This document shows positions 1 to 46,398 of a stretch of 46,398 nt of DNA, piece after piece. The stretch's first letter is position 1, and every line of letters starts with the position of its first letter. The notes below the pieces were generated by a model. That model saw only the letters and a list, made by a program, of their open reading frames with translations, was not told the DNA's origin and ran no database searches. Both the position numbers and the translations under genes were made by a program. The DNA is from a virus: positions 1 to 46,398 of the IMG/VR virus record IMGVR_UViG_3300037247_000749; one strand, given 5' to 3'.

Positions 1-127
1 GTCAAGATTAAAGGTAACTCGGCGTCTGCGCCGCTTATCTTTACTTCAAAGGAACATGTTGGTTCTCCGTTGCAGCGGTTTACCACACTCGGTTGGTTGC
101 AGAATTTCGCAGCCCAAATCCTCAATG
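1..127. repeat. Left copy of 127-bp terminal direct repeat
   Basis: The first 127 bases are identical to bases 46272-46398. The capsid reading frame crosses the junction in frame, so this is best read as the overlap of a circular assembly (127 is a common assembly k-mer length) rather than a biological terminal repeat. One copy should be removed when the genome is circularised. Confidence 0.95.
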
Positions 128-165
128 ACAACTTCGGACACGTCCTCGTGACGACAACCGCATAA
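1..165 (+). CDS. Major capsid protein, C-terminal part (continues from the right end)
   Basis: In-frame continuation of the capsid gene that starts at 45495, ending with TAA at 163-165. Bases 1-127 duplicate the right end. Joined over the circle, the gene is 942 nt and encodes 313 residues. The C-terminal part here contains FGHVLVTTTA just before the stop. See the entry at 45495 for family evidence. The split is caused only by where the circle was cut. Confidence 0.93.
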   Translation, partial: VKIKGNSASAPLIFTSKEHVGSPLQRFTTLGWLQNFAAQILNDNFGHVLVTTTA

Positions 166-2844: not shown

Positions 2845-2932
2845 ATGGTAAGAGCACGCAAAAGCGGCCAAGGCCGAAGGTAAGTCTTTGAAGCAATTCC
2901 TCAAAGACAAGAAACCTAAGAAGGACAAGTAA
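2845..2932 (+). pseudogene. Possible frameshifted small Lys-rich ORF
   Basis: An ATG at 2845 behind GAGGT opens a frame that stops after 12 codons (MVRARKSG...). The neighbouring frame continues openly from 2852 to the TAA at 2930-2932 with a coding-like Ala/Lys-rich tail (AKAAKAEGKSLKQFLKDKK). Its stop overlaps the next ATG. Removing one A from the AAAA run at 2860-2863 would join the two into one protein of about 28 residues. It could be an assembly error, a decayed gene or nothing. Confidence 0.25.
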
Positions 2933-4023
2933 TGGTAGATACCAAAACATGGAAGCTTTCTGAAATACGGGCCTTGTTTCGAGAATTAACCGGGCGGCCT
3001 TCGACTGCGCAGATTACCGATGTTGACGTCAATAAAGAGATTAACGATTATTATGTAAATCACTTTCCATCCGATGCTAAAGTTGACAGGTTCGATATTT
3101 TTATCACACAGGCAATGTCGGCAACCGACGATGGTATTTATTCTATCGCAAGTGACATAGATAGATTAGATGACCCTGTTACTATCAATGGCAGACAGAT
3201 TGAGTTATTCAGGGACAGGGAGTTGTTTTTTGGCACTCACGACTATTATCATCGCGGCCATTTCTTGCACGGTGGTAACTTTACTGTAACAAGTTCGCAT
3301 CTCGGCATTCAATTCAAAGACGAGCAGTTTATTACCGACCCGAATCTCGCGATAGGTACGGGCGATACCGCGAAAGTCAAACACGGTGCTTTCGATTACA
3401 GAATTCAAGAAAAGTCTTATTCTAAGGCTACGAGCGAAGTAGCTCTGACCGGCGACGCTATTCCCGCTGGTTTATATGGCGCATGGTCGTTAAAGATAGA
3501 TACTGACGGAGATATTACCGTGGCGGCGGCTAACGATAACGGTACGGGTTATGCGACACCAAGGATAGCCCTTGATGCCTTGAATACATCTGATTCCGAT
3601 AGTGCCTATATGGGTTACGTTACTGTAACCAAGTCAGATGGTGCTTTTACGCCTGCTACTACTTTCTTGAGTGCAGATAACGTAACAGCCACATTTACCG
3701 ATGGTAAGTTCGAGAACAGGGGCGAACCCCTTGCCGCGCTATTATACGGTGGCAATTTATATGTTAAACCAAAACCAAATGATATATATGAATTTGAAGC
3801 CTTGTCAATCGGAGACAGACCCACCGCTTTTGCCGATGACGATGCAGTACCCGGTGACGCCAAGTGGGGGCCTTTTTTAGCTGCTGCGCCCGCTGTAATA
3901 CTTTTAGAGCGTAACGGCGAAGATGCAACAAATGCCAAAAGCGCGGCTGCAAGATATTTAAGTTCGATTCGTTCGGATAAGATTAAAAGATTATTAGGCC
4001 AAGTGGTCCAAAGAAGTTTTTAG
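2932..4023 (+). CDS. Putative head-tail adaptor (neck) protein
   Basis: 363 residues. The N-terminus (IRALFRELTGRPSTAQITD followed by VNKEINDYYVNHFP) has the helical pattern typical of gp4/tail-tubular-A type adaptors ('lxxLtGrpst.qltD..v...iN..y'). The C-terminus (RNGEDATNAKSAAARYLSSI) is the matching helical tail. The middle holds beta-rich insertions (about residues 115-290), as in adaptors with surface domains. It starts at an ATG overlapping an upstream stop and precedes the fibre and nozzle genes. This fits a dodecameric ring under the portal. Assignment rests on pattern and position. Confidence 0.5.
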   Translation: MVDTKTWKLSEIRALFRELTGRPSTAQITDVDVNKEINDYYVNHFPSDAKVDRFDIFITQAMSATDDGIYSIASDIDRLDDPVTINGRQIELFRDRELFFGTHDYYHRGHFLHGGNFTVTSSHLGIQFKDEQFITDPNLAIGTGDTAKVKHGAFDYRIQEKSYSKATSEVALTGDAIPAGLYGAWSLKIDTDGDITVAAANDNGTGYATPRIALDALNTSDSDSAYMGYVTVTKSDGAFTPATTFLSADNVTATFTDGKFENRGEPLAALLYGGNLYVKPKPNDIYEFEALSIGDRPTAFADDDAVPGDAKWGPFLAAAPAVILLERNGEDATNAKSAAARYLSSIRSDKIKRLLGQVVQRSF

Positions 4024-34580: not shown

Positions 34581-35105
34581 CTAAGATGTTTCGTAATGAA
34601 TTATCGGCGGGGTAATTGGCATAATGACTGCTCTTTTACCTGTTTTGCTAACAAGCAATATCGGGCGGTCAGGTTCACCATAATAGACTTTCCAATCATT
34701 GCCGACTGCGGCTTCATGTATAAACTTTGGATTGTGCATCATTAGTTTAGCTGCTAATCCGTAAATAATCTTCATAGCGATAGTAATTTCACCGTAAGCG
34801 TCGTTAGCTTCAAAATAACTTTTGCGTTCCGGGATGATGTCCTGGTACTTTGGAAAGTGGCCGTCTTCAATCTTGAGCAAAACTACGCGGGACTGGTTGC
34901 AGACAACTACTTCATACATACCGGGCTCAAAATCATGCTGAATATCGGCAATATGAAGCCTTTTGCCATCGGTAGCAACAAAACGGCCTTTTTCAACCAA
35001 AATATTCTGGATTGCATATCGGCTGTTGTCTTTGGAGACTGCGCGGGCAACAAACCGGACACAATCTAACATCCGACGATTTACTTTTGGAATTTCGATT
35101 TTCAT
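34581..35105 (-). CDS. Short DnaN-like sliding-clamp protein
   Basis: 174 residues resembling DNA polymerase III beta clamps in order: VRFVARAVSKDNSRYAIQNI; FVATDGKRLHIADI (TDGKRL at 45-50, as in DnaN 'ATDGHRLA'); DGHFPKYQDIIP (81-92, as in DnaN 'GRFPDYRRVLP'); ITIAMKIIYGLAAKLM; and VIMPI near the end (160-164, as in 'YVVMPM'). A normal clamp is about 366 residues, so this is less than half. It looks like a middle domain joined to the last part of domain III. It may form a higher-order ring or interfere with the host clamp. Start overlaps the upstream stop (ATGA); good ribosome site. Confidence 0.6.
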   Translation of the reverse strand: MKIEIPKVNRRMLDCVRFVARAVSKDNSRYAIQNILVEKGRFVATDGKRLHIADIQHDFEPGMYEVVVCNQSRVVLLKIEDGHFPKYQDIIPERKSYFEANDAYGEITIAMKIIYGLAAKLMMHNPKFIHEAAVGNDWKVYYGEPDRPILLVSKTGKRAVIMPITPPIIHYETS

Positions 35106-35417: not shown

Positions 35418-35446
35418 TTGACAAAGCTGTGCGTAGAGGTTATATT
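35418..35446 (+). promoter_or_regulatory. Strong sigma70-type promoter
   Basis: Perfect TTGACA (35418-35423), 17-base spacer, TATATT (35441-35446). Likely start near 35453. It drives a short leader with a terminator hairpin and then the exported-protein island. The rest of the 35219-35541 gap is AT-rich. Confidence 0.8.
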
Positions 35447-35541: not shown

Positions 35542-36078
35542 ATGAACAAAGCAGGCGGCATAATAACAATCATCTTCTTAACCATTGCATGTATTTTCAT
35601 GGGATTAACTCATTTTATCGAGGCTGATACAGCGAGGATAGAAAACGAAATCGAATCAGTTATCACTGAAACGGAGCTTATATTAGATGAACCATCGGTT
35701 ACTTATGCTACAACTTTCCCGTTCGAGATTGATGCAAGCACCCCGAATCTTGAGCTTGAGATAGACACAGACAGCGGGATTGACCCGAATGCGTTTTGCG
35801 TAATTACAGATGCTGGCGATTTTGTGTTTGATGATGTTTTTCAGCCAATGGTGCTTGAGTTATCAACAGAAGATAATGCGGTTTTAATAAATATACCAGA
35901 CGCTGACGAATTGTATAAATATGTATCCGGTGGAATCGAACTGACAGGGAGGGCTCAAATAATTATAAGAATTGGTGACGCTGATTATACGCTTATTTTT
36001 CCAATAAACCCACCAGAGGCAGTAGAAATCAACGCTGATATTTACGATAACTCTAATATATACGGCGATTTACCATGA
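35542..36078 (+). CDS. Membrane-anchored or secreted acidic protein (178 aa)
   Basis: ATG chosen at 35542 for its AAGGAG ribosome site. N-terminal hydrophobic segment (GIITIIFLTIACIFMGLTHF) acts as signal or anchor. The rest is very acidic and beta-rich (FPFEIDASTPNLELEIDTDS ... IIIRIGDADYTLIF), resembling an extracellular or periplasmic domain. It is the first gene behind the strong promoter and overlaps the Tat-signal gene by 4 bases (ATGA). Confidence 0.6.
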   Translation: MNKAGGIITIIFLTIACIFMGLTHFIEADTARIENEIESVITETELILDEPSVTYATTFPFEIDASTPNLELEIDTDSGIDPNAFCVITDAGDFVFDDVFQPMVLELSTEDNAVLINIPDADELYKYVSGGIELTGRAQIIIRIGDADYTLIFPINPPEAVEINADIYDNSNIYGDLP

Positions 36079-36347
36079 ACAGGCGAACATTCGGAAAGAT
36101 AGTTGCAGGGCTGTTTGCTATGCCTTTGGGGTTTTTGGGGAAAGCTGAGGCGGCAGTTAAAATCAAGCCATATAGACATAAATGGCGCCGATGGGGAAAG
36201 ATAGAAACACCTATAGTGCCTTTAGTAGAGGGCGTAGCGCCCTATAACCCTTACCAACCATCAAGAGGGATTGCTTGGCGGCGAAGCGGTTATCGAGCGA
36301 TTATTCTTAATGATGATTTTGGGCACATTTTAACGGTTGAATCATAA
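36075..36347 (+). CDS. Tat-signal protein with a major-capsid-like segment
   Basis: 90 residues. Residues 1-26 form a twin-arginine signal: NRRTFGK, a moderately hydrophobic core and an AEA-type cleavage region (residues 24-26). The mature part has KWRRWG (36-41) and PLVEG (49-53) with the same 13-residue spacing as KWRRWG (53-58) and PLIEG (66-70) of this phage's capsid protein. An ungapped 44-residue alignment gives 16 identities, continuing to I..R...Y.A.I. DNA is diverged, so it is not a recent duplicate. It could be an exported capsid mimic, a decoy or a repurposed fragment. Nothing comparable is known to me. Confidence 0.75.
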   Translation: MNRRTFGKIVAGLFAMPLGFLGKAEAAVKIKPYRHKWRRWGKIETPIVPLVEGVAPYNPYQPSRGIAWRRSGYRAIILNDDFGHILTVES

Positions 36348-36529
36348 TGGAACAGTGGTTAAAGATATTGGACAGACTGGCTCACAAACGGGCCGGTGTA
36401 ATAATCGCAGCGATCGCAGCAATAGCGTTTGCAGACCTGCCAGCAGGCAAGGATATTGTCATTATGGCAGGAGCGGCGATTTATACTCTATGCCAGACAA
36501 TATCAGACGGGGGCAAAGATGGGGAATAA
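36347..36529 (+). CDS. Small two-helix membrane protein, holin candidate (60 aa)
   Basis: The ATG overlaps the previous TAA (TAATGG). Two short hydrophobic helices (AGVIIAAIAAIAFADLP and DIVIMAGAAIYTLC) are separated by a tight turn with charged ends, the layout of small holins. It shares the operon with the two exported proteins. No endolysin is nearby. Confidence 0.45.
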   Translation: MEQWLKILDRLAHKRAGVIIAAIAAIAFADLPAGKDIVIMAGAAIYTLCQTISDGGKDGE

Positions 36530-43080: not shown

Positions 43081-43263
43081 ATGATGTTGACAGAAGCTGA
43101 ACAAAAAACTTTCGAGGATATGTTTTCGGGAATAATGGACACTCATCCTGATTCCAGATTTATTGATAAAATTGCAGATTTGATTTTCGAGATGACGGGT
43201 AATGTTAATTTGCGAATGAGGCTTTTTGGTATCGCGCAAAAATTAGCAAGGAAAAAACGTTAA
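43081..43263 (+). CDS. Small helical hypothetical protein (60 aa)
   Basis: Strong ribosome site (AAAAAGGAGAAA); two adjacent ATGs. Helical, with EQKTFEDMFSGIMDTHPDS and a basic end. Its stop overlaps the next ATG (TTAATGG). Confidence 0.5.
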   Translation: MMLTEAEQKTFEDMFSGIMDTHPDSRFIDKIADLIFEMTGNVNLRMRLFGIAQKLARKKR

Positions 43264-43529
43264 TGGTTTGCATAAGAAACAAAAAAGGCAGATTCCAAAG
43301 ACACAGTTTCAACCAAGAGACTGAAAGCAAAACTGGATTCAGGAAATTATGTAAAAACTGTGGGTTGAAGGTATTTCAGTCCCATAGCGAAAGAATAAGA
43401 TTGAAATTTTACGTAGAGTATTTATTAAGAACAACAACTCAGCTTTTGGAAACTGCGCGAGTTTTTAAACAAAATAAAACTTATCCTACAAAAAATATTA
43501 AATGGCGTAGATACGGAGCGCCAATATAG
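43263..43529 (+). CDS. Small basic protein ending in a capsid-like KWRRYG motif
   Basis: 88 residues, Lys/Arg-rich, with CKNCGLKVFQSHS (possible zinc pair). The C-terminus NIKWRRYGAPI resembles the KWRRWG-NP segment of the capsid protein and the KWRRWG of the Tat protein. The match covers only about eight residues here. Unknown role. Confidence 0.45.
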   Translation: MVCIRNKKGRFQRHSFNQETESKTGFRKLCKNCGLKVFQSHSERIRLKFYVEYLLRTTTQLLETARVFKQNKTYPTKNIKWRRYGAPI

Positions 43530-45494: not shown

Positions 45495-46398
45495 ATGCCT
45501 ACTAATAGCCAAATGCACACGACGACAAGGATTAATCACCCGATTAATATCTTCTACCAAAGTAAGGTATTGCTCCGGGTTATTGATGCCTTTATTTACG
45601 TAAGATTCGGAAAAAAGGATTCAATGCCTCAGCACGCGGGCGATATTAGTAAGTGGCGAAGATGGGGCAACCCGACCGCCCAGACTGCACCGCTGATTGA
45701 GGGCGCTGACCCTGCGCCGATTCTTTTGTCAAAGACCGATATACAGGTCAGGCTAAAAGAATACGGGGCATGGATTGTAACAAGTTCGTGGATGACCTTT
45801 ACTGGTATCACCGATGACGAGAACCAAATGTCCGACATACTTCTGGACAACATGAAACTGACCCTTGACACGCTTACCAGGGATGTCGCCAGTGGCACAG
45901 CGTCACAGACCACGGCTTCTAATGGTACAGGAACAGTTACGTTTATCAATAAGACTGACCTTGACATAATCGTAACCAACTTGCTTGTCCAGATTACCAA
46001 AATGATTGAGCCCCAGATAAGTGCAAGTGTTAAGGTGGCTACGTCACCTATCAGGGCGTCGTTTATCGGTATCTGTCACGTTGGACAGAGAAACCGACTG
46101 GAAGCCGTAAGCGGTTTTAAGCACGTAAGTTCGTATGCCCAAGACCGTGCCATGCCGGACGAGTTCGGTTCTACCGATGATATTCGGTGGCTGTTGACGA
46201 CTAACGCAACGCGGGCTACTGCTACGACCGGATACGAAAATCTTATCTTCGGACAAGAATTTTTCGGTACGGTCAAGATTAAAGGTAACTCGGCGTCTGC
46301 GCCGCTTATCTTTACTTCAAAGGAACATGTTGGTTCTCCGTTGCAGCGGTTTACCACACTCGGTTGGTTGCAGAATTTCGCAGCCCAAATCCTCAATG
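45495..46398 (+). CDS. Major capsid protein (N4-gp56-like), N-terminal part
   Basis: The frame starts ATG at 45495 (ribosome site AAAGGAAAA), runs off the window and continues at 1-165, giving 313 residues. The HK97-fold N4-gp56 family is shown by FYQSKVLLRVIDAFIYVRFG (residues 20-39), then KWRRWG, TAPLIEGADPAP (64-75), VRLKEYGAWIVTSSWM (85-100) and LTLDTLTRDVA (about 120-130). KWRRWG (53-58) and PLIEG (66-70) are the segments also present in the Tat-signal protein at 36075. Confidence 0.95.
   Translation, partial: MPTNSQMHTTTRINHPINIFYQSKVLLRVIDAFIYVRFGKKDSMPQHAGDISKWRRWGNPTAQTAPLIEGADPAPILLSKTDIQVRLKEYGAWIVTSSWMTFTGITDDENQMSDILLDNMKLTLDTLTRDVASGTASQTTASNGTGTVTFINKTDLDIIVTNLLVQITKMIEPQISASVKVATSPIRASFIGICHVGQRNRLEAVSGFKHVSSYAQDRAMPDEFGSTDDIRWLLTTNATRATATTGYENLIFGQEFFGTVKIKGNSASAPLIFTSKEHVGSPLQRFTTLGWLQNFAAQILN
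46272..46398. repeat. Right copy of 127-bp terminal direct repeat
   Basis: Identical to bases 1-127. It closes the circle; unique genome length is 46,271 bp. Confidence 0.95.

Follow-up and report, generated by a model that had tools for sequence, protein, structure and literature searches.

The 90-aa ORF at positions 36075–36347 (plus strand) of the window, i.e. the whole stretch of 46,398 nucleotides of phage DNA that was analysed, is, judging from its sequence, very probably a modular chimera, in which a Tat-type leader cassette is joined to two signature segments of an N4-gp56 major capsid protein (MCP), one N-terminal and one C-terminal. Its translation is MNRRTFGKIVAGLFAMPLGFLGKAEAAVKIKPYRHKWRRWGKIETPIVPLVEGVAPYNPYQPSRGIAWRRSGYRAIILNDDFGHILTVES. 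A preliminary description had given the position and length correctly, as well as the start (MNRRTFGK) and the spacing of KWRRWG and PLVEG. Equally confirmed was the joining of a Tat-type leader to capsid-derived sequence, which was also found in an unrelated jumbo phage.

The capsid gene and its internally deleted derivative

The window carries an exact terminal repeat of 127 bp (1–127 identical to 46272–46398) and is therefore circular; the phage genome in this assembly is 46,271 bp in length, with the capsid gene crossing the join. The N-terminal 301 residues of MCP are encoded at 45495–46398 and the C-terminal 54 codons plus the stop at 1–165 (both plus strand), the first 127 nt of the latter repeating the last 127 of the window; reading through the circular join to position 165 gave a full length of 313 aa. 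The protein was assigned to PHROG 1357, major head protein (1.6e-20), and alignment with annotated N4-gp56-type capsids made the N4-gp56 signatures visible. A profile of the N4-gp56-type capsid alignment matched the solved capsid structures 9d82, 9e99, 9d7z and 9bgn; AlphaFold prediction on the capsid with 20 relatives had a pLDDT of 32, too low to be of use.

When the window's own genome was searched with the ORF (tblastn), the capsid gene was matched twice, at its two ends. Residues 36–56 (KWRRWGKIETPIVPLVEGVAP, 36180–36242, plus strand) correspond to MCP 53–73, the N4-gp56 N-terminal signature (KWRRWG...PLVEG), with 11 of 21 residues identical (E 7e-7, BLASTP; also matched by profile), and residues 58–90 (NPYQ..AWRRSGYRAIILNDDFGHILTVES, 36246–36344, plus strand) correspond to MCP 281–312, the capsid C-terminus (ILNDxFGHxL), with 12 of 33 identical (E 3e-5, pairwise BLASTP; also tblastn). 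The 44-residue capsid alignment described previously was reproduced in its count of identities (16/44, 36%, tblastn), but its second half had been mispaired, the true partner of residues 58–90 having been hidden by the split of the capsid gene over the two contig ends. The two matches are collinear with the capsid order and only one residue apart within the ORF, so that the mature part has the make-up of an N4-gp56 capsid minus residues 74–280, a mini-capsid. With about 207 central residues missing, and far shorter than the 300 or so residues at the least of a full-length subunit, the ORF is by its sequence a capsid derivative that could not serve as a complete capsid subunit.

Several comparisons indicate that, on sequence scores, this likeness is beyond chance. 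A spliced N4-gp56 profile, in which MCP columns 40–74 were joined to 280–311 at a splice point picked after the match was known, matched the ORF in a single unbroken domain (E 4e-9; next non-capsid 0.3, among 3,529 ORFs of 23 related records), and 60 alternative splice points gave 2e-4 as the best match, setting aside the ORF itself and capsids; the same search on the shuffled mature sequence gave 0.087 at best. A profile built from distant N4-gp56 capsids alone detected the ORF at 2.6e-4, the next non-capsid being at 0.13. The chained score of both matches was 124 versus a maximum of 64 in 400 shuffles, and the ORF-capsid local score was 67, where the highest of 2,000 shuffles reached 55. No other non-capsid sequence matched as well among the 2,830 short ORFs of the 23 related records. 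Both the N-terminal KxRR...PLxEGxxP and the C-terminal ILND signatures of N4-gp56 are contained in it. The relationship to N4-gp56 anticipated earlier thus appeared with the purpose-built profiles, whereas PHROG and Pfam had no family matching the 90-aa protein; no relatives of the ORF were found in phage isolates, plasmids or the bacterial genomes of GTDB.

As had been stated, the nucleotides are diverged: the same codon is used at only 7 of the 23 residues identical between ORF and MCP, which argues that the mini-capsid is not a recent copy, and a recent duplication of the capsid gene was rejected on the little DNA similarity left. Positions invariant in 20 capsids of the clade were kept at 16 of 27 in the ORF, compared with 7 of 26 variable ones (p = 0.027). 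This preference is suggestive of constraint, although not strongly so, and lends weak support to the earlier statement that selection has kept the protein; a search for orthologues of the window gene yielded none.

It was also noticed that an 88-aa ORF of the window (43263–43529, plus strand) ends in ...NIKWRRYGAPI, the KWRR[WY]G motif alone being common to it and the relation uncertain, and that a small ORF elsewhere (L032:2048–2275) carries KWRRWGDVG, i.e. the invariant KWRRW-type motif of the capsid, at its C-terminus. A repeated DNA element was rejected as the origin of KWRRWG, given that flanks and codons differ.

Operon context and the leader as a module

The mini-capsid gene is preceded by a gene for a 178-aa protein with an N-terminal TM helix (35542–36078, plus strand), whose stop overlaps the mini-capsid ATG (ATGA), and is followed by a gene for a 60-aa protein with one or more hydrophobic segments (36347–36529, plus strand), whose ATG overlaps the mini-capsid stop (TAATG). 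By these overlaps it reads as part of a translationally coupled operon, with a gene for a membrane protein on either side. A sigma70-like promoter (TTGACA-17-TATATT, 11/12 matches, 35418–35446, plus strand) lies ahead of the three genes; the count of sigma70-like sites across the region was no greater than chance. The gene is outside the head operon, and no defence gene was found linked to it. On the minus strand at 34581–35105, a 174-aa protein had, in our own reading, likeness to one DNA polymerase sliding clamp domain, with no match in Pfam.

The leader comprises residues 1–26 (MNRRTFGKIVAGLFAMPLGFLGKAEA, 36075–36152, plus strand), with a twin arginine, 14 uncharged residues and an AxA-type cleavage site. 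It satisfies our own simplified Tat rule (twin arginine, a hydrophobic residue two positions later and at least 13 uncharged residues), and its hydrophobicity is under the usual threshold for a membrane anchor. The Pfam TAT_signal family (PF10518) did not match the window protein and had weak, below-cut-off matches to two other leaders of the clade.

The best whole-protein relative of the ORF was a 76-aa ORF in G001, a phage with an unrelated capsid, and what the two clearly have in common is the leader only. At the DNA level the homology of the leaders begins one base before the ATG and ends at codon 23, a stretch of 70 nt with 81% identity, and there is none outside. This termination at the leader boundary suggests that leader and passenger evolve as separate modules. 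In the homologue check proposed earlier, G001, the only relative with the same leader, retained the leader and lacked the capsid motif in its passenger; taken with the profile results, the outcome for the refuting conditions set earlier is mixed. Tat-type leader ORFs with differing passengers were also located near head genes in the clade phages G005, G006, G010 and G020. No virion protein was matched by the passengers of the G001, G010 and G020 leaders; the G006 passenger resembled its own head-to-tail stabilization protein by BLAST (1e-6), but weakly so by profile (6e-4), and is taken as a lead only. Since the leader is also met without any capsid part, the earlier suggestion that the signal is incidental to a minor capsid piece is disfavoured.

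Two of these proteins have short stretches in common with the window ORF. The G005 leader protein contains KWRRWG, and that of G006 ends in RAVILNDDF, a stretch (RA[IV]ILNDDF) also present at the C-terminus of the window ORF, so the C-terminal match may be one common to other leader proteins instead of being capsid-derived. A 73-aa ORF of G005 with an EVGTIEGVRW motif was considered as a related piece and set aside as probably due to chance.

Leader-borne virion fragments in other phages

The idea that gp23-type capsid pieces might also bear leaders of this kind was tested with a synthetic probe; as the gp23 (A6) and chimeric (A7) probes contained synthetic sequences, natural matches alone were counted as evidence. 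In G023, an unrelated jumbo phage of 527 kb, an 84-aa ORF consists of MNRRSFLKAFAAFVAAPTALTPPKASVPPPPK followed by a gp23-type capsid segment, which is 56% identical to the phage's own MCP over 52 residues (E 2e-14), this capsid itself belonging to Pfam Gp23 (4.9e-83). The start of the 84-aa ORF overlaps the preceding gene, which encodes a strong hydrophobic segment. A second ORF of the same phage (289 aa, L149:5193–6062 = G023:525193–526062) has the leader MLRRDMLKIMGGAVLLPSLPAPKKE joined to a terminase ATPase fragment, with 31.6% identity to the phage's own TerL over 174 residues (E 1.8e-15) and a match to PHROG terminase (5.6e-7). The next gene in tandem (L149:6130–6645) has the same leader (90.7% over 75 nt, nothing beyond) and another passenger. 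By a post hoc count, the approximately 707 genes of G023 include four ORFs with a Tat-type leader and four with a core-virion fragment, two being in both sets (p = 1.4e-4).

A leader and a gp23 segment with a frame change between them were found in G024 and G025 (L103/L104, about 2915–3168), identical in the two assemblies; the fragment is 56% identical to the own capsid of G024, and the leader is in another reading frame. In G026, three overlapping small ORFs have N-terminal tags of the F[KI]F[FL]RG type (L110:1107–1919, minus strand), two of which carry gp23 fragments (PHROG 138, 1e-11 and 9e-12), and one tagged ORF joins C-terminal and N-terminal capsid pieces. Among the tblastn matches listed for isolate phages, all were in capsid, unannotated or hypothetical genes and none covered the leader; a leader plus gp23 probe had no match in GTDB genomes. 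Two further loci of G023 were observed, a leaderless 76-aa ORF with YRGPSYLDMGYFYAPYVP (G023:242601–242831, minus strand; 72% identical to the C-terminal region of the capsid in an 18-residue stretch) and a shortened gp23-type capsid paralogue of 312 aa (G023:289478–290416, plus strand). Taken together, the fusions of the window and the jumbo phage suggest an undescribed class of decoy-like phage proteins, the function being predicted.

Possible functions and relation to known systems

Capsid proteins trigger CapRel, and antiviral STAND systems triggered by terminase are noted in the same paper (PMC9712102); capsid proteins also trigger TIR-based systems, as for Thoeris ThsB (PMC11312562), and Tat exports partners lacking a signal of their own, termed 'hitchhiker' export (PMC4273604). 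The fragments described here stem from the sensed kinds of protein, namely capsid (window, G023 and G024) and terminase (G023). Since capsid and terminase trigger immunity and Tat co-exports signal-less partners, sensor decoying, with possible removal through Tat, would be the most economical functional account, with neutral capture about as likely. Phage-made fragments would act as decoys of virion or packaging proteins read by bacterial immune sensors, the mini-protein would keep the conserved capsid surface and bind the sensor but leave it inactive, and the folded sensor-decoy complex would be brought to the membrane, or removed from the cytoplasm, by way of the Tat leader. We infer use of the leader by Tat, folding of the fragment and its engagement with a recogniser of the parent protein. 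A folded passenger is required by Tat, and folding of the mini-capsid is unsupported by the single-sequence AlphaFold prediction on the 90-aa protein alone (pLDDT 48). As a mechanism for capsid and terminase fragments with Tat-type leaders, decoying is proposed as a doubtful one; combined with the modular leader-capsid chimera, it is our best explanation overall, held tentatively and at less than an even chance. A wider reading is unlikely, namely that unrelated phages join swappable Tat leaders to parts of their capsid and packaging proteins so as to produce decoys, which would bind immune sensors in the cytoplasm and remove them by hitchhiker export.

Neutral or near-neutral capture, which we regard as equally doubtful as the decoy mechanism itself, would mean that illegitimate recombination puts a mobile leader cassette, start codon included, in front of whichever DNA lies nearby, the capsid and terminase pieces being caught by chance and decaying. 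It agrees with the differing passengers of relatives with the same leader, the frame-shifted copy of G024/G025 and the singleton status of the window gene; it is at odds with saturated silent sites accompanied by preferential keeping of capsid-invariant positions, with the open and translationally coupled frame, and with G023 passengers being core virion or packaging proteins more often than expected. Dead genes are, moreover, seldom kept in compact phage genomes. A membrane-tethered assembly factor, whose leader anchors capsid segments so as to seed or restrain assembly, or a minor virion component, is quite unlikely: the keeping of capsid-invariant residues and the membrane proteins encoded by the neighbouring genes would suit it, but the leader is less hydrophobic than a usual anchor, terminase-fragment and non-capsid passengers do not fit, and the gene is away from the head operon. 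Superinfection exclusion by an exported fragment acting in the periplasm against incoming phage is very unlikely, for although the genes of the operon are of the membrane/export type and have their own good promoter match, no periplasmic target is obvious, capsid and terminase being unexposed there during entry of tailed phages.

Just as improbable is an ordinary small exported beta-hairpin protein of the clade, resembling the capsid by coincidence or through the shared KWRRWG motif; KWRR[WY]G ends two other small ORFs and occurs inside another leader protein, RA[IV]ILNDDF is common to the G006 leader protein, and a downstream virion protein of G016, tried and rejected as a further capsid fragment, reaches a score of 55 with the C-terminus of the capsid, seemingly a chance match. 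Against this reading, a single uninterrupted profile alignment takes in both signatures in their order, and the jumbo phage has an independent capsid-fragment leader.

If the decoy-like proteins are functional, phages copy pieces of the proteins read by immune sensors, which would provide a direct route to finding the sensed surfaces, and if hitchhiker decoying is true, immune evasion would proceed through sensor removal; even if they are neutral, a mobile leader cassette making new export-type phage genes is documented. To our knowledge, no phage system has been described in which fragments of the phage's own capsid and terminase bear an export signal. No equivalent of exported or Tat-linked capsid fragments was found in the open-access literature searched, most subscription papers and preprints being outside its scope, and on this basis the leader-fused fragments appear to be a new kind.

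The signatures K[FW]RR...PLxEGvxP and, towards the C-terminus, W...A.ILND follow one another in the mini-capsid as they do in N4-gp56 MCPs, whereas about 207 central residues are absent and an export-type leader is added. With T4 gp23-type MCPs (PF07068), the jumbo-phage protein shares the RKLxAxWS...ELTxxLAxEIxxEIDxEI segment, but the piece is only approximately 50 residues long and stands behind a Tat-type leader, and the capsid family is unlike that of the window. The leaders resemble those of Tat substrates in the RRxF motif, the low-hydrophobicity h-region and the AxA-type site, although the passengers here are virion and packaging fragments and their export is predicted. Proteins of the kinds supplying the fragments are known immune triggers: Gp57 triggers CapRel, capsid triggers Thoeris and TerL triggers Avs; those triggers are intact proteins, whereas separate leader-bearing fragments are encoded here. 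The proposed outcome, sensor neutralisation, would be the same as that of the anti-defence protein DSAD1 (PMC11087589), by a mechanism that is in our case inferred.
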